Assembly: GCA_902784345.1 (NCBI GenBank)
Contig: CACZUD010000002.1
Span: forward strand, 222,183 to 261,885
Source: an uncultured Pseudomonadota bacterium
GTDB taxonomy: Bacteria; Pseudomonadota; Alphaproteobacteria; Rs-D84
Direction of reading: 5' to 3'
Length of the DNA stretch: 39,703 nt
Part shown: in pieces, positions 23,907 to 35,401 of the stretch
Position numbering within the stretch: position 1 is the stretch's first letter
Layout: each line of letters starts with the position of its first letter
The notes under the pieces: generated by a model
What the model was told of the DNA's origin: nothing
Databases searched by the model: none
The model's input: only the letters and a program-made list of their open reading frames with translations
Translations under genes and position numbers: made by a program

Positions 23907-25259
23907 TTGCAAAAACAGTCTGGTAATTTCTTGTTGCAAGCGTTATTAGCATTAACTTTGGTTTTTGCTTTTATGCCGTTTTTTGCACGCAGTATTTCTT
24001 CACGTGATACGGCTGCTCAAATGTATGCTGCTACGGAACAAATAGAATCCGCTTACGGTGCGGCACGCACATATTTGTATGAAGAAAAAGACAACCTTCC
24101 ATATAAAAAACAAGAATTAAACGGGGAAGAATTTGTTTCTGTTTTAGAAAATTATGGGCTGCCGTTGGGGTATATTCCTGAAACATATTTTAATCAAAAA
24201 ATATCTTTAATTATAGATAAAAACGAAGAAGGTGTTTTTGGTTTTATAAATGTAACCAGTGGTAAATTATCAAAACTGCAGTTGGCAGAATTGGCGCGCA
24301 GAATCGGTTTTTATGCACATGTTCATGGTAATAATATCGAAGTAGATATACCACTTGATATAAAATACAGCGATATTGTTTCTAAAAAAGAAACAAACGA
24401 ACAAGTTGGTTTTTTATCAGAATTGGATATGGGTGATAAAAGCATAGATAAAATAGGTGTTTTGTTTGCCAGAAATGGTGCCTTTGAAAGTGCACAATTT
24501 AATACACTGTCTCTTTATGGTTTAGAAGAAAGCAGAAAAGATAAGAATAAAATTTCGGATTTGTACACAAACAAAGCGGTGTTTCAAACTGCAGATGGCG
24601 GGGCGGCATTGTCTTTGTCGCGTGGCGAAATAAATACATCTGCTGCATCTTTGCGTACTATCGCCAGATTTGGAACAACAGGTGGTTTTGAATCAAACGT
24701 TGCCTCTGTATACGATTTTTCAATGACAGAAGGTCGTACTGGTTTTACTGGACCTGCTGATTGGTTGGTGCGTGGTTCTGTGCGAGCAGACAACTTCAGT
24801 TTTAATGTGGACAGATTAGATATAGGTTCTTATTTGGATGCGTCGCGCGGTCAAGATGTTTATATAGATCCAGAAAGTTTGTCTTATGTCACCAGTAAAG
24901 GTGTTGATGTAAAAAATATATATGCTGCAAATATATCGTTACGTGATCAGACATCTTATGGTTTGTTGAATGGTCAATCTGGTGTTTTGTTGGTCGATAT
25001 AAGACCTGCCGGAACTTCACTTTTGCCAGATGTTTTTGTTGATGGCATAAATAACGATTCTTTTGAAATTATTGCAGACCCAAAAGATACAAGCGGCAAA
25101 GTAGTTTCTTGTAGAGATATAATCAGCCAAATGGATGTAGATTATAACAGCAAATCTTTGGCACAGAATATCATTTGCCAATATGTTTTTTGGCAACGTT
25201 TAGAAACAAGAATAAATATAAAACAATGCTTACAGAGTGGACGCAGTGATTGTATGTAA
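23907..25259 (+). CDS. Large prepilin-like protein A
   Basis: 450 residues from a TTG start behind AGGAGGGGG. The leader MQKQSG precedes NFLLQALLALTLVFAFMPFFA. This is a prepilin-type site after Gly6, but residue +5 is Gln instead of Glu. The first 130 residues are mixed. The rest is strand-rich with many Ser, Asp and Asn and pieces such as GGAALSLSRGEINTSAASLRTIARFG. The end is Cys-rich: four Cys in the last 60 residues, the last one residue from the stop. The pattern suggests a minor or tip pilin carrying a big C-terminal domain. It is the first of three such genes and overlaps the next by 23 bases. No known family was recognised for the C-terminal part. Confidence 0.72.
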   Translation: MQKQSGNFLLQALLALTLVFAFMPFFARSISSRDTAAQMYAATEQIESAYGAARTYLYEEKDNLPYKKQELNGEEFVSVLENYGLPLGYIPETYFNQKISLIIDKNEEGVFGFINVTSGKLSKLQLAELARRIGFYAHVHGNNIEVDIPLDIKYSDIVSKKETNEQVGFLSELDMGDKSIDKIGVLFARNGAFESAQFNTLSLYGLEESRKDKNKISDLYTNKAVFQTADGGAALSLSRGEINTSAASLRTIARFGTTGGFESNVASVYDFSMTEGRTGFTGPADWLVRGSVRADNFSFNVDRLDIGSYLDASRGQDVYIDPESLSYVTSKGVDVKNIYAANISLRDQTSYGLLNGQSGVLLVDIRPAGTSLLPDVFVDGINNDSFEIIADPKDTSGKVVSCRDIISQMDVDYNSKSLAQNIICQYVFWQRLETRINIKQCLQSGRSDCM

Positions 25260-26442
25260 AAAGTATTTTGAAAAATTAAACGCTGATATTCAGCGCGGTG
25301 CAACACTGACAGAAGTGGTGTTGGCTGTCGCCATAGTGATTGCTGTTTCGCCTTTTATGTATAATCAAATTATCGAAATGTCCAACGAATCACAAGATAT
25401 TGCGCGCGCTAATGAAATTGTCGGTTTGCGTGATGATGTTATAAATTATGTTCGTGTTAATCAAGAAAAGTGGGACGAAAACGCAGAAATAAAATTATCA
25501 GAAGAAGATTTAGCAAAAATAACCCCGTTGGCACACAGCGGCTATGTTGATAAATATAAGGTTAATGGCGCATCAATAACAGATGTTTATTTGGCTTTTG
25601 ATACAAGTGGTTCTGATTTTCGTGCGGCAAGTATTGCAAAGCAAATCGGTGAAGATGCTGCTGTCGTTCGAGAAGACGGAATTGCATATTCGCAAAGTTG
25701 GGCGGTATCTGCACCAAATGATTTTTATGTTGGTGATTTAATTTTCAGAATATCTCATGATTTTGAAGGCGCGGATAAATCCAGATTTTTACATCGTGGA
25801 ACGATGGGCGAAGATGGTCTTAATAAAATGCTGCGCAATTTACATATGAATAATTTCAATGTGTTTAATGCTGCGGATATAGATGCTTTATCTGGAAAGG
25901 TCATAGATGCAGATGCTGTATTTTTAGAATCTGATGTCGTAGATGCGGGTACAGTATACTTTTCGTCTGGCGCAAATCTTAGTTCAGACAGCATAACATT
26001 TGGTACTATGCGGGTGACAGGCGACACAAGCGGCTTTAATCTTATCAAGGCAGATAAATTAAATGGTGATAAATATACTACAAAAGGTCGTTTGATTGTG
26101 GACAGAGCAACAATAGGTAATTCTGTTAATGTGGCCGGCAATCTGATTTTAAAATCATCAAGTGGTACAACTATTTCTGGTTTTGGTGGTATATCAATGA
26201 ACAAGCTTTTAACACCTTATTTATCTGCAACAGATTTAGTGTTTTTTGAAAATTTTGGTATAACTGTTTCTGGTGAATTATTACTGGCAGGTACTGCCCC
26301 GTTAAAAATAGGTAATTGGTATTTTCCGTCTTTGACACCACCGTATTTTTCGAAATTGATTTTGACACGAGCATCTGTGCCGCCTGTGCCAGATGCAGAC
26401 GAATTTAGTAAAATAATATCAAAAGATTGGCAGACAAGATAA
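25237..26442 (+). CDS. Large prepilin-like protein B
   Basis: 401 residues from GTG at 25237; the in-frame GTG at 25246 is an equally possible start. Both lie inside the end of gene A, so translation is coupled. The leader ends in QRG, then ATLTEVVLAVAIVIAVSPFMYNQI: cleavage after Gly21, Glu at +5. The middle holds KMLRNLHMNNFNVFNAADIDALSG and repeated short strand units (TTKGRLIVDRATIGNSVNVAGNLILKSSSG is one run, given here as pattern). This recalls the beta-rich stalk of PilV-like tip proteins of conjugative type IVb pili. The stop overlaps the next ATG (TAATG). Confidence 0.72.
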   Translation: MDAVIVCKKYFEKLNADIQRGATLTEVVLAVAIVIAVSPFMYNQIIEMSNESQDIARANEIVGLRDDVINYVRVNQEKWDENAEIKLSEEDLAKITPLAHSGYVDKYKVNGASITDVYLAFDTSGSDFRAASIAKQIGEDAAVVREDGIAYSQSWAVSAPNDFYVGDLIFRISHDFEGADKSRFLHRGTMGEDGLNKMLRNLHMNNFNVFNAADIDALSGKVIDADAVFLESDVVDAGTVYFSSGANLSSDSITFGTMRVTGDTSGFNLIKADKLNGDKYTTKGRLIVDRATIGNSVNVAGNLILKSSSGTTISGFGGISMNKLLTPYLSATDLVFFENFGITVSGELLLAGTAPLKIGNWYFPSLTPPYFSKLILTRASVPPVPDADEFSKIISKDWQTR

Positions 26443-27755
26443 TGAGAAATAAAAACAGATTTTTTTATAAAAATAATCAACGCGGTGGAATGCTGGTCGA
26501 ATTAATGATGACTATTGCGTTGGCTGCAATAATTATACCGTTCGTTTTTCGTTATCAGCAAACTTCTGTCGTGCGCGCTAAAAATATCGCAATCACAAAA
26601 CAAATGGAAAATGTGCAAAATGCGCTGGAAAGGTATATTGTTGAAAACAAAACAGAATTAATGCGTCCAAAAGGTAAAAATATAACACGTGTAAAAATAG
26701 AAGAATTATTAAATTATGGATTGCCAGAATATATTGCACAAACATATGGCAGGGATTACCAATTACGAATATTGAAATCTGCAGATAATAAAAACCAGTC
26801 CATATTGCAAGGAATAGTCATTTTAAACAATACAGATATGACACCAATTCGTACGCGTGAAATAGTCAATCTGGGTGGTGGAAAATTCGGGTTTGTAGAA
26901 AACGATGTTACGTATGGTGGTTTCGGTGTCTATCGCGGTCAGGCGTCTGATTTTGGACTGAAAAACACCAAAGGTTTAATTGGAACAACAAATGTTAAAC
27001 GTGGAAACACAGAATATTTGTGGCGTGTGCCGTCTGATAATGAAAATGATGCAACCATGCAATCAGCATTAAATTTGGATGGACACGATATAAAAAGCAT
27101 TCGTTTTCTGGATGCTTATAAAGCGCAATTTGATGAAAAATTGAAAGTTGGAAAATTAGATGTGGGAACATTGGTTTTTGCAAATCGTTCCACTGTTGAT
27201 TCTGTTTTTGCTGCAAATAACGCTGTTGTAAATGGTGCGTTGACGGCAGATTCGCGTAATTTGAATGTGAACGGAACATTGGAATTGGCGGATTCAGCAA
27301 AATTTTCATCGTTTTATACGAATGACCTGTATGTTAATACTTTAACGTTAAGCGGGTTCAGTGTTTCTTCTGATTCTGGAAAATCTTCGTCATTGAAAAT
27401 AATTGGCGATATGGATTTAATTTTGGGGCGCATAAATGCAACTTATGTTTCTGTAGGATATACCGGTTCTGTGACACCAAAATTAACAATCACTGATAAA
27501 ATACAAGATTCAAAAGATTCTTCTTTTTATTGGGATGTTAAAAACCAAAAGGCACGTTTTGTCGATATTAACAGTCCAGAACTTTCGCGTATGGCGTCAA
27601 TAATAATGGCTATGGAATCAAATTCTGGGACAGTTGCGACCAGTGTGTTTAGCGGTGTTTCTGCAAATGCGAATGCAACAGTTGCAGATTACATAAATGC
27701 AATCAATAACATGCAATCACAAATACGCACAAAATATGAATTGTTGAATTTGTAA
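26442..27755 (+). CDS. Large prepilin-like protein C
   Basis: 437 residues from the ATG at 26442, which shares a base with the stop of gene B. The basic leader ends in NNQRG, then GMLVELMMTIALAAIIIPFVFRYQQ: cleavage after Gly15, Glu at +5. About residues 195-330 are strand-rich and repetitive, with SALNLDGHDIKSIRFLDA then LNVNGTLELADSAKF and YTNDLYVNTLTLSG. The N-L-D-G-x-D-I-x-S pattern is also seen in PilV-type tip pilins and resembles the matching region of gene B. A helical end (SRMASIIMAMES) closes it. Role at a pilus tip is inferred. Confidence 0.72.
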   Translation: MRNKNRFFYKNNQRGGMLVELMMTIALAAIIIPFVFRYQQTSVVRAKNIAITKQMENVQNALERYIVENKTELMRPKGKNITRVKIEELLNYGLPEYIAQTYGRDYQLRILKSADNKNQSILQGIVILNNTDMTPIRTREIVNLGGGKFGFVENDVTYGGFGVYRGQASDFGLKNTKGLIGTTNVKRGNTEYLWRVPSDNENDATMQSALNLDGHDIKSIRFLDAYKAQFDEKLKVGKLDVGTLVFANRSTVDSVFAANNAVVNGALTADSRNLNVNGTLELADSAKFSSFYTNDLYVNTLTLSGFSVSSDSGKSSSLKIIGDMDLILGRINATYVSVGYTGSVTPKLTITDKIQDSKDSSFYWDVKNQKARFVDINSPELSRMASIIMAMESNSGTVATSVFSGVSANANATVADYINAINNMQSQIRTKYELLNL

Positions 27756-27792: not shown

Positions 27793-28302
27793 ATGAAAAC
27801 GGTATGTGATTTTTGTAAAACAGAATATATTTTGGAACGTGCACCAAGCACACCTGTAAAATGCGCGGTGTGTGGTCATGTTTGGATGCCACGCAAACAA
27901 ATTTCTCAAAAGACAATGATAAAATTTATTGCAGCGATATGTGCATTTATTGCGGCATGTATATTTTCTTTTGTTGCGATAGTTAATTTTTCTGGAAATG
28001 GTAAAAATAAAGCTCTTGTTACGAAAATAGACGAAAAAAACATACATACTGTTATGGATGAAAAAGGGGACAAACGCATCTTTGTTTCTGGGGATATTAC
28101 AAACACAACAGATGATATATATGGCCTGCCGAATATAATAATCGTATCGTATGATTCATTGGGCAATGTTTTGTCGCGCCAGACTTTCATGCCTCCTGCA
28201 ACATTATTGGAAGCAAAAACCACAGTAACTTTTAACCATGTATTATCAGTAGACCCAACAAATGTAAAAAGATTATCTGTTGAATTAAAGGAATCAAAAT
28301 GA
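27793..28302 (+). CDS. Zinc-ribbon membrane protein with DUF3426-like domain
   Basis: This 169-residue protein has an N-terminal zinc ribbon with Cys5, 8, 24 and 27 (MJ0042 type). A membrane helix lies at about 43-65. The outer domain reads IFVSGDITNTTDDIYGLPNIIIVSYDS and LLEAKTTVTFNHVLSVDP, matching the DUF3426 pattern (strand, G-x-I-x-N, P-I, strand, late F). Such proteins are common in Proteobacteria, but their role is not settled. CGGAG stands before the ATG. It follows the pilin genes by 37 bases and overlaps the next gene (ATGA). Confidence 0.8.
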   Translation: MKTVCDFCKTEYILERAPSTPVKCAVCGHVWMPRKQISQKTMIKFIAAICAFIAACIFSFVAIVNFSGNGKNKALVTKIDEKNIHTVMDEKGDKRIFVSGDITNTTDDIYGLPNIIIVSYDSLGNVLSRQTFMPPATLLEAKTTVTFNHVLSVDPTNVKRLSVELKESK

Positions 28303-28790
28303 GATTTTTATCGGCAATATTTTTATCTTTGTTATGCGTTTCCGCTTTTGCAGATTCTGTGCCAACTCCGCCGCCAGTGCCAGGACCAACGCCTGGGCCT
28401 GTACAACGTGTAAGTGTGTTTTCAACTACGGTTGATTGGGCGGCTGTTACGGGATTGCCATTGAATCAATATACTGGAACAATCAAGGGCACAGATAAAT
28501 CTTTGGTTAAAGATGGTTTGGTATTATATTACCTTGATTCTTTTCCTTGCTATGGTGAAGCAGACAGTGTTCGCGTATGGCTTTCGCCAAAGGGGAAAAT
28601 GTCCGGTCATCTGCGTATAGTTTGTGTTTATCAGCCAGACTATATTTCTTTTGCGTGGCGCAATGCCAGCGAAGATGCTATTCAGGCGCGTTCGACAGGG
28701 ATTTTAACTTGCCCTGTGGAAGGCAAACGTAACTTTACAATCGATATTTCAAAATGTGAACGTGGTCCAGATTGGGACGAACGCAGATAG
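28299..28790 (+). CDS. Small exported Pro-rich protein, unknown family
   Basis: 163 residues. The signal peptide ends at about residue 18 (VSAFA). A Pro-rich linker (PTPPPVPGPTPGPV, about 22-35) leads to a compact domain with four Cys (FPCYGE, RIVCVY, LTCPVEG, SKCERG), enough for two disulfides. I do not recognise the fold. The ATG overlaps the DUF3426 gene stop, and rluD starts 3 bases after its own stop, so it is part of the same operon. A periplasmic or secreted partner of the pilins is possible but not shown. Confidence 0.7.
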   Translation: MRFLSAIFLSLLCVSAFADSVPTPPPVPGPTPGPVQRVSVFSTTVDWAAVTGLPLNQYTGTIKGTDKSLVKDGLVLYYLDSFPCYGEADSVRVWLSPKGKMSGHLRIVCVYQPDYISFAWRNASEDAIQARSTGILTCPVEGKRNFTIDISKCERGPDWDERR

Positions 28791-28793
28791 CCA

Positions 28794-29753
28794 ATGTCCG
28801 AAATAAAAAAATTTTTAGTATCCGAAGAAAATGTAGGTATAAGAATTGATAAATTTTTATCAAACGAAATGCCTGAATTTTCGCGCAGCGAAATTCAAAA
28901 ATTCAAAATATCCCGCAACGACGGCAAAACATTGAAATTGTCAGATAAAACCAAACTTGGCGATGAATTTATTGTGGAAATTGCAGAAAAGCAAACCGAA
29001 GTTGCGTACGACAATATTCATAGTGATTTTGAATTGGAAATTTTGTACGAAGACGATGATATTATCGTGATAAACAAACCACGTGGTGTGGTGATGTACC
29101 CCAGTGCTGGAAACAAAACGGGAACATTGGTACAAAATTTGTTGGCTTATACGAATTTATCGACTTTGGGTGGTCAAACAAGACCTGGGGTTGTTCATCG
29201 TTTGGACAAAGATACCAGTGGTGCGATGGTTTTTGCCAAAAGTGATGCGGCGTATCGTGGCCTGGTCAAGATTTTTTCTGCGCACGATTTAACACGCAAA
29301 TATGTTGCGTTTGTTTGGAATGTACCACCTTGGGGCGGGGCAGAAATCACTGGAAATATTGCCCGTTCTTCGCGTAATCGTCAAAAAATGAGCATGGTTA
29401 AGACGGGTGGCAAGCCGGCACATACAATCGTCAATGTTATGGATGTCTGGACACGCAGCAATGTATCTATGTTTCGTTGTACATTAATGACGGGACGTAC
29501 ACATCAAATCAGGGTTCATCTGTCTTCGCATGGTTTCCCAGTGTTGTGTGATCCGCTTTATGGTCGTGAAAAAAATCATATTGGTTCGGTAAAAGACCCT
29601 GAATTACTGGATTTCTTGAAGAATCATAACGGTCAGATGTTGCATGCAGAAATTTTGGAATTTGTTCATCCTGTGACTGGTGAAAAAATGCATTTTAAAG
29701 CACATATGCCAGATGACATGATTGAATTGAAAGAAATTTTAGATAACGAGTAA
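28794..29753 (+). CDS. RluA-family 23S rRNA pseudouridine synthase (RluD-type)
   Basis: This 319-residue protein has an N-terminal S4 RNA-binding domain (about 13-65) and a synthase domain with VINKPRGVVMYPS (92-104), the catalytic HRLDKDTSG with Asp138, and GRTHQIRVHLSSHGFPVLCDPLYG. This fits the RluC/RluD group. RluD modifies U1911, 1915 and 1917 in helix 69 of 23S rRNA; the exact target here cannot be told from sequence alone. It is the last gene of the pilin operon by spacing. Confidence 0.93.
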   Translation: MSEIKKFLVSEENVGIRIDKFLSNEMPEFSRSEIQKFKISRNDGKTLKLSDKTKLGDEFIVEIAEKQTEVAYDNIHSDFELEILYEDDDIIVINKPRGVVMYPSAGNKTGTLVQNLLAYTNLSTLGGQTRPGVVHRLDKDTSGAMVFAKSDAAYRGLVKIFSAHDLTRKYVAFVWNVPPWGGAEITGNIARSSRNRQKMSMVKTGGKPAHTIVNVMDVWTRSNVSMFRCTLMTGRTHQIRVHLSSHGFPVLCDPLYGREKNHIGSVKDPELLDFLKNHNGQMLHAEILEFVHPVTGEKMHFKAHMPDDMIELKEILDNE

Positions 29754-29838
29754 TTTTTAGCGACAAAACTGTTATTTTTCTCTTTTCTTATTTTTGAAAC
29801 TATGATAAAATAAATACAAAGTAATATGGAGAAAGGGG

Positions 29839-32800
29839 ATGAAAACTATCACCAAAACACTTAGTTTATTGTCAATTATGGCTGTAATTCCGGGGGCTAT
29901 GGCGGCTACTTCGCGTGTAAGCACCACGGCAAAAATGACGCCACGTTTACCATCAATTGCTGGTTATATCATGACGGGCAGCAGTTCTACAACCAGCGGT
30001 TTGACAAGTGCGTCAACTGGTACCACCTATCTGGCGGATGTCGATTGTATTGATGACTATACGTCCTGTATCAAGGCCGATGATGCGTGTGGTTCTGATT
30101 TCGAAGAATGCACAACAAATGTTTTGTTCCATGCCCAGATGTCTAAATGTTTAAGCACACTTTATCAATGCAATTCCAGCGGGGTTAATGCTTTGTTCGG
30201 AACTTCTGCGATAAACGCTTTGTCCACGGTATCCAGTTACGAAACCATTGATGGCGTTCAAGAAGTCAAAAGATATACATACCCAACGGACGGTTCTGTT
30301 TTGGGTCAGTTGATTATTGGTGCGGGTATTTCAAACAAACTGACAACAGAACAATGTGTTCGTCGTTATACAAATTGTTTGAAACGTGAAGATATTTGTG
30401 GTGAAGATTTCGAATTGTGTACAGATCAAAAATCTTTCAAAAAACAAGCGTTGCTTTGTGATTCTACGTTGGCGCGTTGTCAAAATGATGGCAAGATTCA
30501 AATGTTTGGGTCGGTTGCAAACGCTTCATCTTTGAAACCAAGCACAGATTCCAGACTGGGCACATTAATAGAAGAAGGTGCGGCATTGGCTGCATTGAAT
30601 GCTGTTAAAACATGTAACAAGGTTGTTGATAACTGTTTGGTAAATTCTTGTGTTAAAAACCCATTCCGTTGTGTCGAAGGTATTTCTTTGCAAACGATTG
30701 ATACAGCAGATATCATTGCGGGTGCCGAAGGCGACAAATTCAATCTTGCTGCACTTAACGGCAGTGATGGCACAGAATTAACAACTGCATCTGATGTTCG
30801 TAAATTGTTAAAGACACAATGTCTTGAAACAATTGGTGCAAATAAATATTGCCATATGACATATCGTGAAAAAATGCCAACAAAACGTGAATTGGGCGAT
30901 CCAGAATTACAGGAAGAAGTCTTTTCATTGGCATATTCTGCACGTAAAGATTATGCAAATACTAAAATCCAAGAAGGAATCAAAAAGTTTGATTCTGACA
31001 CCAAAAACAAATGTATCGACACAATATCTTCTTGTGTAATGCGTTCTTGCGGTGGCGGTATTGGTTCTGTATGTTATAAAAGGGCAAAATCTTCTAACAA
31101 TATCGGCGAAGTGAACGTTAATTCCAAGAATACATATAATGATATCAAGGCCGGATGTTCTGCGATTGTAAATGCTGATGCAAATTGTATTTATTCTGCA
31201 ATGGCTGGTGGCGAAGACGGTTATCAATATTCATTTGTGAACAATGATACATTTACAACTTTGTTCCCAGAATACACAGGAACCGAAAACGATCAAATTG
31301 GTGCAATTGCAACATTGAATTCTGTGTTGGCTACATCTTATAATGATGCAGCGATTGAACAAATGAAAAAACAATGCCAAACAACAGCCTTGGGTTGCGT
31401 AAGATCTATGTGCGGTAAAGATTACATAAACTGCTATCGTAACAGAACAGATATCGTTGCCGGTACATATGATACAGGTAATTCAAAACTGGATCGCAGT
31501 ATGAATAAAATGGGCGGTATATTGGATTATAATATCGTTATTGGTTTGTGTATGAACACTGTTAAAAACGCATCTATTTGTGAAGAACATTTGAAAGTTG
31601 CAGCGGCTGATTGGCGCGATGAAAGTTTCAAAGACGCAAACAGTTGGGGTGACAGCAGCTCTGTTCGTGCCGGTTGGTTAGATGCAAACACAACAAAAAT
31701 CAACACAAGGGTAAACGATGTTTTGATTGGTTGTGCGATTCCTACATCCGAAGCACAATCAAAACCAAACTGTGTTGCATATGACCGCGCAGAACCAAAT
31801 GCAAATGGAACATGTGACGGTGTTATGGACGAAGATGGTTGCTTGTATTCTGAACCTGTATATCAAAGCAACGCTGAATATGTATTAGAAAATGCTGGTA
31901 AAACATTGTTCCAAGAATTGTTGGCAGACGTTGAACGCGAAGTTCAGGCAAAATACAACGCAAAACTTACAAAAGAACAAAATGTTTGCCTTGCACAAAA
32001 CAATGGTGGAATCAAGGGTGCATCTGATAATGGTTCAACATTTATGTGGGTTAAGTTGAAAAATAACAAAATCCCAAAGAACTATAACACCAAAGGATTG
32101 TCGACAAAACAATTTACTGCATCTAATGATTTGTATGGTTCGTTCTGCCGTGCAAGAATAACCGTTACATCTGATGATAAAGCGGTTCAAGAAGTATTGG
32201 CTGGGACCGGTGAATCAACAGCATACTTTGCAGTTGGTGATGCATTTACTTGCGGTTCTTGGATAAGCCAAAACACTTTGAACAAAATAACAAACATTAT
32301 CGGCGACAAAGCACGTAAAGATGCTGGTGAAGGCTCTGCAGCGGAAGACAGAGATTTGATGTGGACACAACTTATCTCTACTATTGTTGGTGGTGCCGGT
32401 GGTGCGGTCGCTACAAATGCATTGCAAAACAATGGTTTGTTGGGCGGTGTCAGCAAGAAAAAAACAAATGCATTGGATGATTGTTTGAAAAATGTAGACA
32501 ATGCTAAGGCAGCGAGTGGTGCGACAGCGACTGCCTATGCAAACAAAGCGTTAAGCAATGCAAGAGAAGGCGGGGCAGACGTGTCTGGTATAGATTTCAG
32601 CAATCAAACACAGTATCGATTCAAAGAAACAGGTTTAGAATTGTTTTATGCCTCAGCAGACGAACTGGTAAAAAAATGTGAAGGAAATGAGGTATTGAAA
32701 AATAAAGTTGACAGCTTTGTTGCTGGATATAAGAATGGTACTAAAAAACCTACTTCAAAGGATTACGAATATGTAGGAAGAACATTGGATACGTATGCAA

Positions 32801-33183
32801 AAGACGCTGGGTGCACCCCTGGAAAAACATATGCCAATACTGTATTCTTAGAAGTTGAAGAAAACCGTTCTGTAGTAGTTAATCCTGATAAATCAAAACT
32901 GGATAAACTTGCCAATGCATGTCGAACCGAAAAATCTAACAACGGCGAAGACAAGACCAAGAAAACTTTGATTAACATTGGTGGGGCTGTTGTTGGTGGT
33001 CTTGCGACAAACATGATTGCTTATCGTGTGGCAAAGACAACTAAAGAAGCTGGTTATGAATCTGCTGCGAACAGTGCAATCGCTGAATGGATGAGTGAAG
33101 TTGGTGATCATATCCAATGTTATCTGGGAACAGAAGAATTGGGTTCGTATGGTGACACAATAGCATTCACTGTTGAAGAATAA
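29839..33183 (+). CDS. Very large exported protein with repeated six-cysteine modules
   Basis: 1114 residues with a signal peptide (MKTITKTLSLLSIMAVIPGAMA) and a strong RBS (GGAG). Two modules have exactly the same Cys spacing, C-x6-C-x6-C-x6-C-x12-C-x6-C: Cys70-111 and Cys173-214. Shared residues include YT-x-C and CG-x-DFE-x-CT. Three more modules run C-x6-C-x4-C-x6or7-C followed by a C-x9-C pair: Cys259-338, 392-450 and 513-581. The C-terminal half has scattered Cys and two glycine-zipper segments (IVGGAGGAVATN and GGAVVGGLATN). Not recognised as any known family. Being secreted, it is likely disulfide-rich. Own transcript, ended by a terminator. Confidence 0.85.
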   Translation: MKTITKTLSLLSIMAVIPGAMAATSRVSTTAKMTPRLPSIAGYIMTGSSSTTSGLTSASTGTTYLADVDCIDDYTSCIKADDACGSDFEECTTNVLFHAQMSKCLSTLYQCNSSGVNALFGTSAINALSTVSSYETIDGVQEVKRYTYPTDGSVLGQLIIGAGISNKLTTEQCVRRYTNCLKREDICGEDFELCTDQKSFKKQALLCDSTLARCQNDGKIQMFGSVANASSLKPSTDSRLGTLIEEGAALAALNAVKTCNKVVDNCLVNSCVKNPFRCVEGISLQTIDTADIIAGAEGDKFNLAALNGSDGTELTTASDVRKLLKTQCLETIGANKYCHMTYREKMPTKRELGDPELQEEVFSLAYSARKDYANTKIQEGIKKFDSDTKNKCIDTISSCVMRSCGGGIGSVCYKRAKSSNNIGEVNVNSKNTYNDIKAGCSAIVNADANCIYSAMAGGEDGYQYSFVNNDTFTTLFPEYTGTENDQIGAIATLNSVLATSYNDAAIEQMKKQCQTTALGCVRSMCGKDYINCYRNRTDIVAGTYDTGNSKLDRSMNKMGGILDYNIVIGLCMNTVKNASICEEHLKVAAADWRDESFKDANSWGDSSSVRAGWLDANTTKINTRVNDVLIGCAIPTSEAQSKPNCVAYDRAEPNANGTCDGVMDEDGCLYSEPVYQSNAEYVLENAGKTLFQELLADVEREVQAKYNAKLTKEQNVCLAQNNGGIKGASDNGSTFMWVKLKNNKIPKNYNTKGLSTKQFTASNDLYGSFCRARITVTSDDKAVQEVLAGTGESTAYFAVGDAFTCGSWISQNTLNKITNIIGDKARKDAGEGSAAEDRDLMWTQLISTIVGGAGGAVATNALQNNGLLGGVSKKKTNALDDCLKNVDNAKAASGATATAYANKALSNAREGGADVSGIDFSNQTQYRFKETGLELFYASADELVKKCEGNEVLKNKVDSFVAGYKNGTKKPTSKDYEYVGRTLDTYAKDAGCTPGKTYANTVFLEVEENRSVVVNPDKSKLDKLANACRTEKSNNGEDKTKKTLINIGGAVVGGLATNMIAYRVAKTTKEAGYESAANSAIAEWMSEVGDHIQCYLGTEELGSYGDTIAFTVEE

Positions 33184-33185
33184 GA

Positions 33186-33211
33186 AAAAACGCCCCGCGG
33201 GGCGTTTTTTT
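33186..33211 (+). terminator. Intrinsic terminator after the six-cysteine protein
   Basis: The palindrome CGCCCCGCGGGGCG (33191-33204) is preceded by AAAAAA and followed by a run of T, so it can work in both directions. Confidence 0.88.
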
Positions 33212-33214
33212 AAT

Positions 33215-33389
33215 AACAACCCTCCCCGTCTTGTGCTGGCGCACAATCCACCCCGCCCCAGGCGGGGAATTTACTATTTTTCCAGAATAACATTGAATTT
33301 CTAAAATACGAAATTTGGGTTTTTTATTCCGGAAAGCAAGGTTCCCCGCCTGGGGCGGGGTGGCCGCGAAGCGGACGGGGAGGGTTGTT
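33215..33389. repeat. MITE-like inverted-repeat element
   Basis: Left arm 33215-33269 and right arm 33342-33389 are inverted copies. The outer 16 bases (AACAACCCTCCCCGTC) and the inner 22 (CCACCCCGCC... to GGCGGGGAA) match exactly. Between these blocks each arm has its own small palindrome of different sequence: TTGTGC/GCACAA in the left, CCGC/GCGG in the right. The arms are very GC-rich in an AT-rich genome; the 72-base interior is AT-rich and codes for nothing. It looks like a mobile palindromic element or two facing copies of a shorter one. No flanking target duplication is obvious. Confidence 0.65.
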
Positions 33390-34511: not shown

Positions 34512-34535
34512 AACGCCCAAACGGGCGTTCTTTTA
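34512..34535. terminator. Terminator between lpxD and convergent secreted-protein gene
   Basis: AACGCCC (34512-34518) pairs with GGGCGTT (34523-34529) with AAAC loop, then CTTTTATT. The stem ends just before the convergent gene's stop at 34533. Confidence 0.75.
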
Positions 34536-35351
34536 TTCTGGACATACTGATAATAAATCCAAAGCGTTCTGCACATCTTCGTTTACAGAAACATTTATTT
34601 CGCGTCCCATACCATCTGTGTATGAATAAACAAAAGGTTCACTGCTAAAATTTGGTACGCGTTCGTATACATCAACAAAAGGCTGTAACATAGAATCAAA
34701 CCATTTGTGATTTTTGCATAAGCATAAATTACGAACGTCCATAACCATTTCGCCTGTTACGCCATTTGAATATTTGTCTGCGATATCTTCTGGACCCATT
34801 ACCAAACAACGCTTTGTAATGGCAAATTTATTTGCATCGTCTTTCAAGAATTTGTAAATTTCTTTGTCTGATGCACCCTTTTCACGCATTTTATTTATTA
34901 TCCCAGCCGTACAACATGAATTGCTGGCATTCATAAGCATTTTATATCTTTGTGTTAATGGATACATTTCTGACATATTCGCATTTACTTCGTCATAGGA
35001 ATACATAGCAAATATTACATTATCAATGCTGGCAGAATTAAAATGTGGTGCGCGTGGCGCAACAGTTGTTTTAAATGCCGGTTTTTTATACCAGATTGCA
35101 CAGGCTTCTGGGGTGTCAAACGGGCAATTATAATCGTGTTTGCACATTTGTTCTGGTTCAACACAAGTTTGTTCTGGAACAATCCATTTTAATTCATATT
35201 CGACAGGCTCTGAAATATCGATTATTTTGATGTCTTCACCGATTTCAGCAAGAACCAATTCGCAATCATCACCAATGCATTCAGATGCGCAAACGTAATT
35301 TACATTTAGCGCAATGGCAAACATAGCCAAAAAAGATATTTTGTTTTTCAT
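34533..35351 (-). CDS. Cys-rich secreted protein, unknown family
   Basis: 272 residues from the ATG at 35351; the frame is open 13 codons upstream, but the signal peptide starts here. The signal MKNKISFLAMFAIALNVNYVCA is followed by SECIGDDCELV. About a dozen Cys occur, including CVEPEQMCKHDYNCPF, the pair SCCTAG, and NLCLCKNHKW. No known domain was recognised. It has no clear SD; the region before it is shared with the divergent barrel-protein gene. Like the 1114-residue protein it points to an oxidising envelope with many disulfides. Confidence 0.75.
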   Translation of the reverse strand: MKNKISFLAMFAIALNVNYVCASECIGDDCELVLAEIGEDIKIIDISEPVEYELKWIVPEQTCVEPEQMCKHDYNCPFDTPEACAIWYKKPAFKTTVAPRAPHFNSASIDNVIFAMYSYDEVNANMSEMYPLTQRYKMLMNASNSCCTAGIINKMREKGASDKEIYKFLKDDANKFAITKRCLVMGPEDIADKYSNGVTGEMVMDVRNLCLCKNHKWFDSMLQPFVDVYERVPNFSSEPFVYSYTDGMGREINVSVNEDVQNALDLLSVCPE

Positions 35352-35401
35352 AAGACTAATTTTATCACAAAAAAGGTGTGTTTTAAACAAAAAATTTATT
35401 G

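Follow-up and report, generated by a model that had tools for sequence, protein, structure and literature searches.

The minor-pilin tip complex of type IV pili contains one GspK-like member without the glutamate at position 5 (Glu5), and CofJ/TcpF-type proteins are soluble exported partners of a minor pilin that are secreted with type IVb pili. TraN of F-type conjugation is a large cysteine-rich envelope protein that contacts another cell, and the chlamydial OmcA/OmcB complex consists of abundant cysteine-rich exported proteins in a reduced-genome lineage. In Myxococcus, the minor pilins and PilY1, which are encoded together in clusters, prime the pili and occupy their tip (PMC8833165). CHCH or twin CX9C proteins are helical hairpins with one Cys pair per helix and two disulphides, and they are oxidised outside the cytosol (PMC12114033).

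The gene and its product in Candidatus Enterousia

Candidatus Enterousia falls in the order Rs-D84 of GTDB; the genomes of this order are mostly smaller than 1 Mb, respiratory chains are absent, and the bacteria are predicted to be obligate symbionts or parasites (PMC12306168). The DNA analysed here, a stretch of 39,703 nucleotides referred to as the window, belongs to an assembly of 785 kb (C2:222183-261885), and the nearest public sequences to the protein under study are from Alphaproteobacteria MAGs, several of them named Candidatus Enterousia. The source of the window is Candidatus Enterousia, a group of uncultured Alphaproteobacteria (order Rs-D84) that live in the gut and have reduced genomes.

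The open reading frame at 29839-33183 (+) encodes 1114 amino acids with 42 Cys. The first-pass annotation had described an exported protein of this length built from five six-Cys modules, and its spacings were matched exactly when the frame was checked. The gene has a strong ribosome-binding site, and the N terminus of the protein is a typical signal peptide (...VIPGAMA/ATSR). The parts of the gene are as follows.

29828..29838, + strand: Shine-Dalgarno-like GGAGAAAGGGG, immediately 5' of the ATG (from the sequence)
29839..29904, + strand: signal peptide, residues 1-22 (MKTITKTLSLLSIMAVIPGAMA), without a lipobox (from the sequence and the hydrophobicity peak)
29905..30036, + strand: Ser/Thr-rich linker, residues 23-66, predicted to be disordered (pLDDT <50 over 15-61)
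30046..30171, + strand: module 1, C70-C111, C-x6-C-x6-C-x6-C-x12-C-x6-C
30355..30480, + strand: module 2, C173-C214, spacing of module 1, duplicate of it
30613..30852, + strand: module 3, C259-C338, C-x6-C-x4-C-x6-C-x49-C-x9-C
31012..31188, + strand: module 4, C392-C450, C-x6-C-x4-C-x7-C-x27-C-x9-C
31375..31581, + strand: module 5, C513-C581, C-x6-C-x4-C-x6-C-x38-C-x9-C
31879..32328, + strand: conserved C-terminal mixed helix/strand domain, residues 681-830, with invariant C717, C770 and C805
32356..32451, + strand: glycine-rich hydrophobic segment 1, residues 840-871
32452..32949, + strand: hypervariable helical region flanked by the glycine segments (85-334 aa and 17% identity among orthologues)
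32950..33048, + strand: glycine-rich hydrophobic segment 2, residues 1038-1070
33049..33180, + strand: conserved C-terminal tail with C1094 (EWM..VG.HI.CYIG.E..YGD)
33184..33212, + strand: terminator-like inverted repeat AAAAAACGCCCCGCGGGGCGTTTTTT, directly after the stop (flagged by the scan on the - strand; + has a T run as well)

The five-module part spans residues 67-600. Both glycine-rich segments (about 840-871 and 1038-1070), a pair already noticed near the C terminus, are kept in most orthologues; being moderately hydrophobic (the best 19-residue mean has a median of about 1.2 in the first and about 1.5 in the second), they could possibly be inserted in a membrane. Downstream, the gap before lpxD (window 33225-33385) holds GC-rich inverted repeats (ccccgcc...ggcgggg and cctccccgtc...gacggggagg) that resemble a dispersed intergenic repeat.

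Cysteine modules and their predicted disulphides

Modules 1 and 2 have identical spacing, and modules 3-5 share a second one, C-x6-C-x4-C-x6/7-C followed by C-x9-C. Five four-Cys cores were observed against 0.008 expected from 500 shuffles. The Cys spacing, whose loss in homologues would have spoken against the first-pass reading, was retained: all 30 module Cys were invariant in 80/80 aligned orthologues from 80 species, and the within-block spacings were identical in 80/80, with one spacing at 79/80 (x13 in one sequence). The sole spacing that varied among the 80 orthologues was the C4-C5 loop of modules 3-5. Because of the excess of cores, the invariant cysteines and the fixed within-block spacings, a chance origin of the module pattern is excluded.

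When the modules were compared with one another by hhalign, module 1 matched module 2 with an E of 3e-19, modules 1 and 2 matched module 5 in register (E 1e-3 and 5e-4), and modules 3 and 4 matched module 5 at an E of about 0.01. By alignment, the duplication that links modules 1 and 2 is certain. The homology of modules 3-5 to modules 1-2 is weak at the sequence level (best E 5e-4) and not proven, and the simplest reading would be that all five share one common module type. The earlier suggestion of five modules of one kind therefore stands for the first pair and, for modules 3-5, rests mainly on spacing and register.

The protein gave no match to Pfam or NCBIfam at E up to 1, or to PHROGs, and sequence searches of the PDB with the full profile and with the module profile returned chance-level matches only. 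The best Foldseek E values against the PDB were 1.8 for the full model and 2.0 for residues 62-600, weak matches that do not amount to proof of a new fold. The best BFVD E was 0.14, and the best VIA-align Z for the full model was 5.9, confined to about residues 866-1046. For residues 62-600, the best VIA-align Z of 4.6 was likewise a weak match (rmsd 22.0 over 303 residues). We take all these structure-search values as evidence neither for nor against a relationship. A likeness to an ejectosome tunnel was dropped for its weak VIA-align rows (Z 3-4), and a mobile-element origin was rejected after plasmids and phages gave no match. The module profile found matches in genomes of its own order and none in described families, in agreement with the first-pass remark that the layout belonged to no known bacterial family. 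We call the family new, as the protein falls within no described family and no detected fold; its function is what we infer below.

In both AlphaFold models, most pLDDT values of the module helices are 85-95, and the module cysteines lie on or beside these helices. Within module 1 the Cys positions have equal sums (70+111 = 77+104 = 181), and so do those of module 2 (173+214 = 180+207 = 387), which is what antiparallel helices with C1-C6 and C2-C5 staples should give. Modules 3-5 keep the same antiparallel placement, with the sums offset by 3 throughout (x9 in place of x6). The C3-C4 pairs at 84-91 (module 1) and 187-194 (module 2) would close the loop, and the pairing C1-C6, C2-C5 and C3-C4 is proposed for each module. 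The cysteine complement varies in a manner that supports disulphides. The mature Cys count was even in 68/76 full-length orthologues despite widely differing totals, and C632 and C668 were both present in 25 orthologues and both absent in 55, with zero exceptions; C882 and C1028 showed the same tendency to joint gain and loss, more weakly. These parity and co-variation figures are inflated by shared ancestry, but totals as varied as these point to the cysteines having repeatedly changed by two. The best-supported description of the gene product, and a probable one, is an envelope protein that is exported and consists of several hairpins stapled by disulphides, and the stapled helical hairpins of the first-pass annotation gained support from the structure prediction it had called for, from Cys parity and co-variation, and from the order-wide presence of DsbA.

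DsbA (PF01323) was found in 37/40 order genomes; that of the genome under study has a membrane anchor and a CPYC motif (L155:1498-2316; own genome C1:63940-64416). DsbB and VKOR gave no match above the cut-off in any of the 40 order genomes, and control genomes did match, so that only the first half of the expected DsbA/DsbB pair was detected. This counts against the oxidation model, because reoxidation of DsbA in a non-respiring anaerobe is left unexplained: either DsbA is reoxidised by an unknown enzyme or small-molecule oxidants, or it has another role. A disulphide-rich exported proteome, with DsbA but with DsbB and VKOR undetected, in a lineage reported to be without respiration, poses a testable puzzle. 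The same uncertainty about oxidising power, along with the invariance and regular spacing of the cysteines, would fit modules that bind a metal (zinc or copper) without disulphides. We regard metal binding as highly improbable: the spacings of 4, 6, 7, 9 and 12 residues are not those of CxxC ligand pairs, the Cys pairs are placed antiparallel, Cys number is even with C632/C668 gained and lost as a pair, and the protein is exported in an order that carries DsbA throughout.

Gene neighbourhood, paralogues and candidate function

Upstream of the gene, the window carries the following genes.

23907..25259, + strand: large minor prepilin 1, G/NFLLQ, Gln at +5
25237..26442, + strand: large minor prepilin 2, G/ATLTE, Glu at +5
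26427..27755, + strand: large minor prepilin 3, G/GMLVE, Glu at +5; likely start 26442
27793..28302, + strand: membrane protein with weak zinc-ribbon similarity, conserved neighbour
28299..28790, + strand: exported 163-aa protein, conserved neighbour
28794..29753, + strand: RluD-type pseudouridine synthase (name from sequence recognition)

In 69/80 loci rluD lies directly upstream of the gene, and in nearly all of those the three large prepilins, the zinc-ribbon-like membrane protein and the 163-aa exported protein precede it; some loci without an adjacent rluD are contig ends or belong to divergent species. Position 5 is Glu in prepilin 2 (65/66) and prepilin 3 (68/68) and Gln in prepilin 1 (61/62). 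A cluster of three prepilins, one of them without Glu5, resembles the tip complex of type IV pili. The downstream genes are not conserved across the 80 loci; an exported protein with 13 Cys, about 270-285 aa long and with no family match (window 34533-35390, -), occurs near the locus in 38/80. The housekeeping gene rluD intervenes and a gap of about 57-211 bp separates it from the gene, which may therefore have its own promoter and no pilus link.

The genome carries type IVb pilus genes, namely those for a secretin (PF00263), TcpQ (PF10671) and a prepilin peptidase (PF01478), the type IVb-like secretin and TcpQ genes being at L154:8408-10909. With both of these present, Enterousia probably has a type IV pilus. 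Type IV pili were reported for the UBA9783 lineage only in the set of PMC12306168.

The protein was matched in 34/34 same-genus genomes first searched; a few other genomes of the genus gave weaker module matches only, and the gene is therefore called nearly universal across the genus. The profile of modules 1-2 matched 143/151 order genomes, in many of them several times, but none of about 381 sampled Alphaproteobacteria or about 395 sampled phylum genomes, two samples that overlap (about 770 in total) and in which the profile might miss remote relatives. Within its own genome, this profile leads to another five exported proteins, whose open frames span about 740-880 aa, a census that is a minimum.

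L150:4490-6919: Cys-module paralogue, wider module HMM match and C-x6-C-x6-CG-x5-C core
L150:6939-9140: Cys-module paralogue, wider module HMM match and C-x6-C-x6-CG-x5-C core
L151:5888-8260: Cys-module paralogue, wider module HMM match and C-x6-C-x6-CG-x5-C core
L152:5466-7679: Cys-module paralogue, wider module HMM match and C-x6-C-x6-CG-x5-C core
L153:6012-8573: Cys-module paralogue, weak (E 0.03), from the modules 1-2 profile

The C-x6-C-x6-CG-x5-C core in an exported protein is thus found in the window protein and four paralogues of its genome. Three other Cys-rich genes (L150:9628-11928, L152:32-1936 and L152:2038-4275) were rejected as family members, their core being undetected. Judged from these profile matches, the 1114-aa protein belongs to a superfamily that is restricted to the order, has several paralogues in each genome and had escaped the first-pass annotation; we define this Rs-D84 Cys-module superfamily by the core in an exported protein. 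Near the Cys-rich genes, L152:10539-13916 encodes three membrane proteins of VirB6/TrbL-like look, with no Pfam match above the cut-off. On L157, L159, L160, L161 and L162, further Cys-rich genes (21-41 Cys) are inserted among the conserved housekeeping genes around rpsT and dnaA at positions that vary, as though such cargo had a fast turnover.

Part of the C-terminal domain (residues 681-830) is matched by a stand-alone exported protein of 270 aa (L154:6427-7236; E 1e-8), which was present in all same-genus genomes searched except one, a genome 70% complete and matched via the full-length protein only. Its gene sits between plsY and dprA and, in several genomes, a few genes from those for the type IVb secretin and TcpQ. 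A direct link to the secretin was considered and is weakened by the intervening plsY and rpsT.

Our tentative proposal is a disulphide-stapled adhesin or priming protein of the envelope or pilus tip, possibly PilY1-like in working but not PilY1. The pilus-tip function would be read from the neighbourhood, the size and the lifestyle; surface position, pilus association and adhesion are all inferred. Sec would export the protein to the envelope, where the membrane-anchored DsbA would oxidise it. Each of the five modules would fold as a helical hairpin with three nested disulphides (C1-C6, C2-C5, C3-C4), and together they would form a stiff arm, about 540 residues long and resistant to proteases, that follows the flexible Ser/Thr linker. 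In the C-terminal half, the mixed domain and the two glycine-rich segments would probably bind the membrane or the pilus complex, and the fast-changing helical region that these segments bracket would probably be exposed. Placed at the tip of the type IV pilus whose three minor prepilins are encoded upstream, the protein would act as a large adhesin or prime the pilus, and would hold the partner cells on which these reduced-genome bacteria depend. Against the pilus reading, the paralogues of the same genome are not beside pilin genes, except one near a prepilin peptidase, and structure searches gave no match, leaving adhesion unsupported by fold. Among the functions first suggested, a surface adhesin or structural protein is plausible and backed by the conserved minor-prepilin neighbourhood, and a toxin is unsupported.

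The main rival to a pilus-tip protein is an envelope coat that is cross-linked by disulphides and built from all the paralogues together, like the chlamydial cysteine-rich complex, and that would give rigidity and protease resistance and not specific adhesion. The five further exported proteins of the genome, four with the four-Cys core, the other Cys-rich proteins beside them, the spread of the family over the order, the conservation of a nearly universal gene and the glycine-rich segments, which could anchor the protein in a membrane, are consistent with a coat. We nevertheless find it rather doubtful, since even Cys counts make intrachain pairing appear complete and leave few cysteines for interchain links, and the fast-evolving region suggests contact with variable targets. 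A substitute wall also seems less needed where rod shape and peptidoglycan genes are reported, as in Rs-D84 (PMC12306168).

The conserved prepilin neighbourhood and the near-universal gene would equally suit a chaperone or periplasmic scaffold that acts in assembly or secretion at the pilus or envelope and is not surface-exposed, and so would the stand-alone relative of the C-terminal domain a few genes from the pilus secretin. This is distinctly unlikely: a hypervariable segment and a long Ser/Thr linker are features found more typically in exposed proteins, and the genes between the stand-alone protein and the secretin are unrelated to either. An effector or toxin delivered or secreted to a partner cell, with the staples protecting it outside the cell, would agree with the secreted, stable architecture, the hypervariable region flanked by two hydrophobic segments and the predicted symbiotic or parasitic life (PMC12306168), but it is improbable for a gene that is nearly universal and syntenic, not patchy or mobile, and whose product matched no catalytic or toxin domain. 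For these gut Alphaproteobacteria, which are uncultured and predicted to be parasites or symbionts, the protein is a concrete candidate molecule for contact with other cells. The full scenario, in which Rs-D84 evolved its own stapled-hairpin module and expanded it to an envelope family, one member becoming a type IV pilus tip protein that contacts partner cells, and in which all of them are oxidised by a DsbA working without DsbB or VKOR in non-respiring cells, is unlikely to hold in every part.

Comparison with described systems

The PilY1/PilC proteins of type IVa pili are likewise exported, of about 1100 aa, and encoded beside large minor prepilins, one of which lacks Glu5. The set of three prepilins upstream of our gene is conserved, with small genes and rluD intervening, so that our gene does not share one unbroken operon with the pilins; moreover, the protein consists mainly of helical Cys modules and gave no Pfam match to the PilC beta-propeller (Neisseria_PilC) at E up to 1. 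CofJ/TcpF-type proteins invite comparison through the TcpQ and secretin genes of the genome and the export of the protein, but no family match was obtained, the 1114-aa protein is far larger, and Cys modules are not described for CofJ/TcpF. Unlike that of TraN, the gene lies outside a conjugation locus, and its product matched no conjugative-transfer TraN model of Pfam or NCBIfam at E up to 1. No family match to the OmcA/OmcB proteins was obtained either, and even Cys counts favour intrachain bonds here.

CHCH or twin CX9C proteins of the mitochondrial intermembrane space (COX17 and the CHCHD families; NDUFB10 with CX6C-X29-CX11C) are like the stapled hairpins proposed here, whereas our protein is bacterial, exported and 1114 aa long, with five six-Cys modules and a third Cys pair in each. 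Its modules combine CX6C with CX6C or CX9C instead of twin CX9C, and no Pfam CHCH match was found (E up to 1); in the predicted model, the helices are confident, and the Cys positions would fit CHCH-type nested disulphides. As the defining features tested were absent, the protein is, by these comparisons, not a member of PilY1, CHCH or TraN. As a device, it resembles known kinds, namely stapled helical hairpins and large envelope adhesins, and this bacterial multi-module design would join the short list of helical-hairpin disulphide scaffolds.
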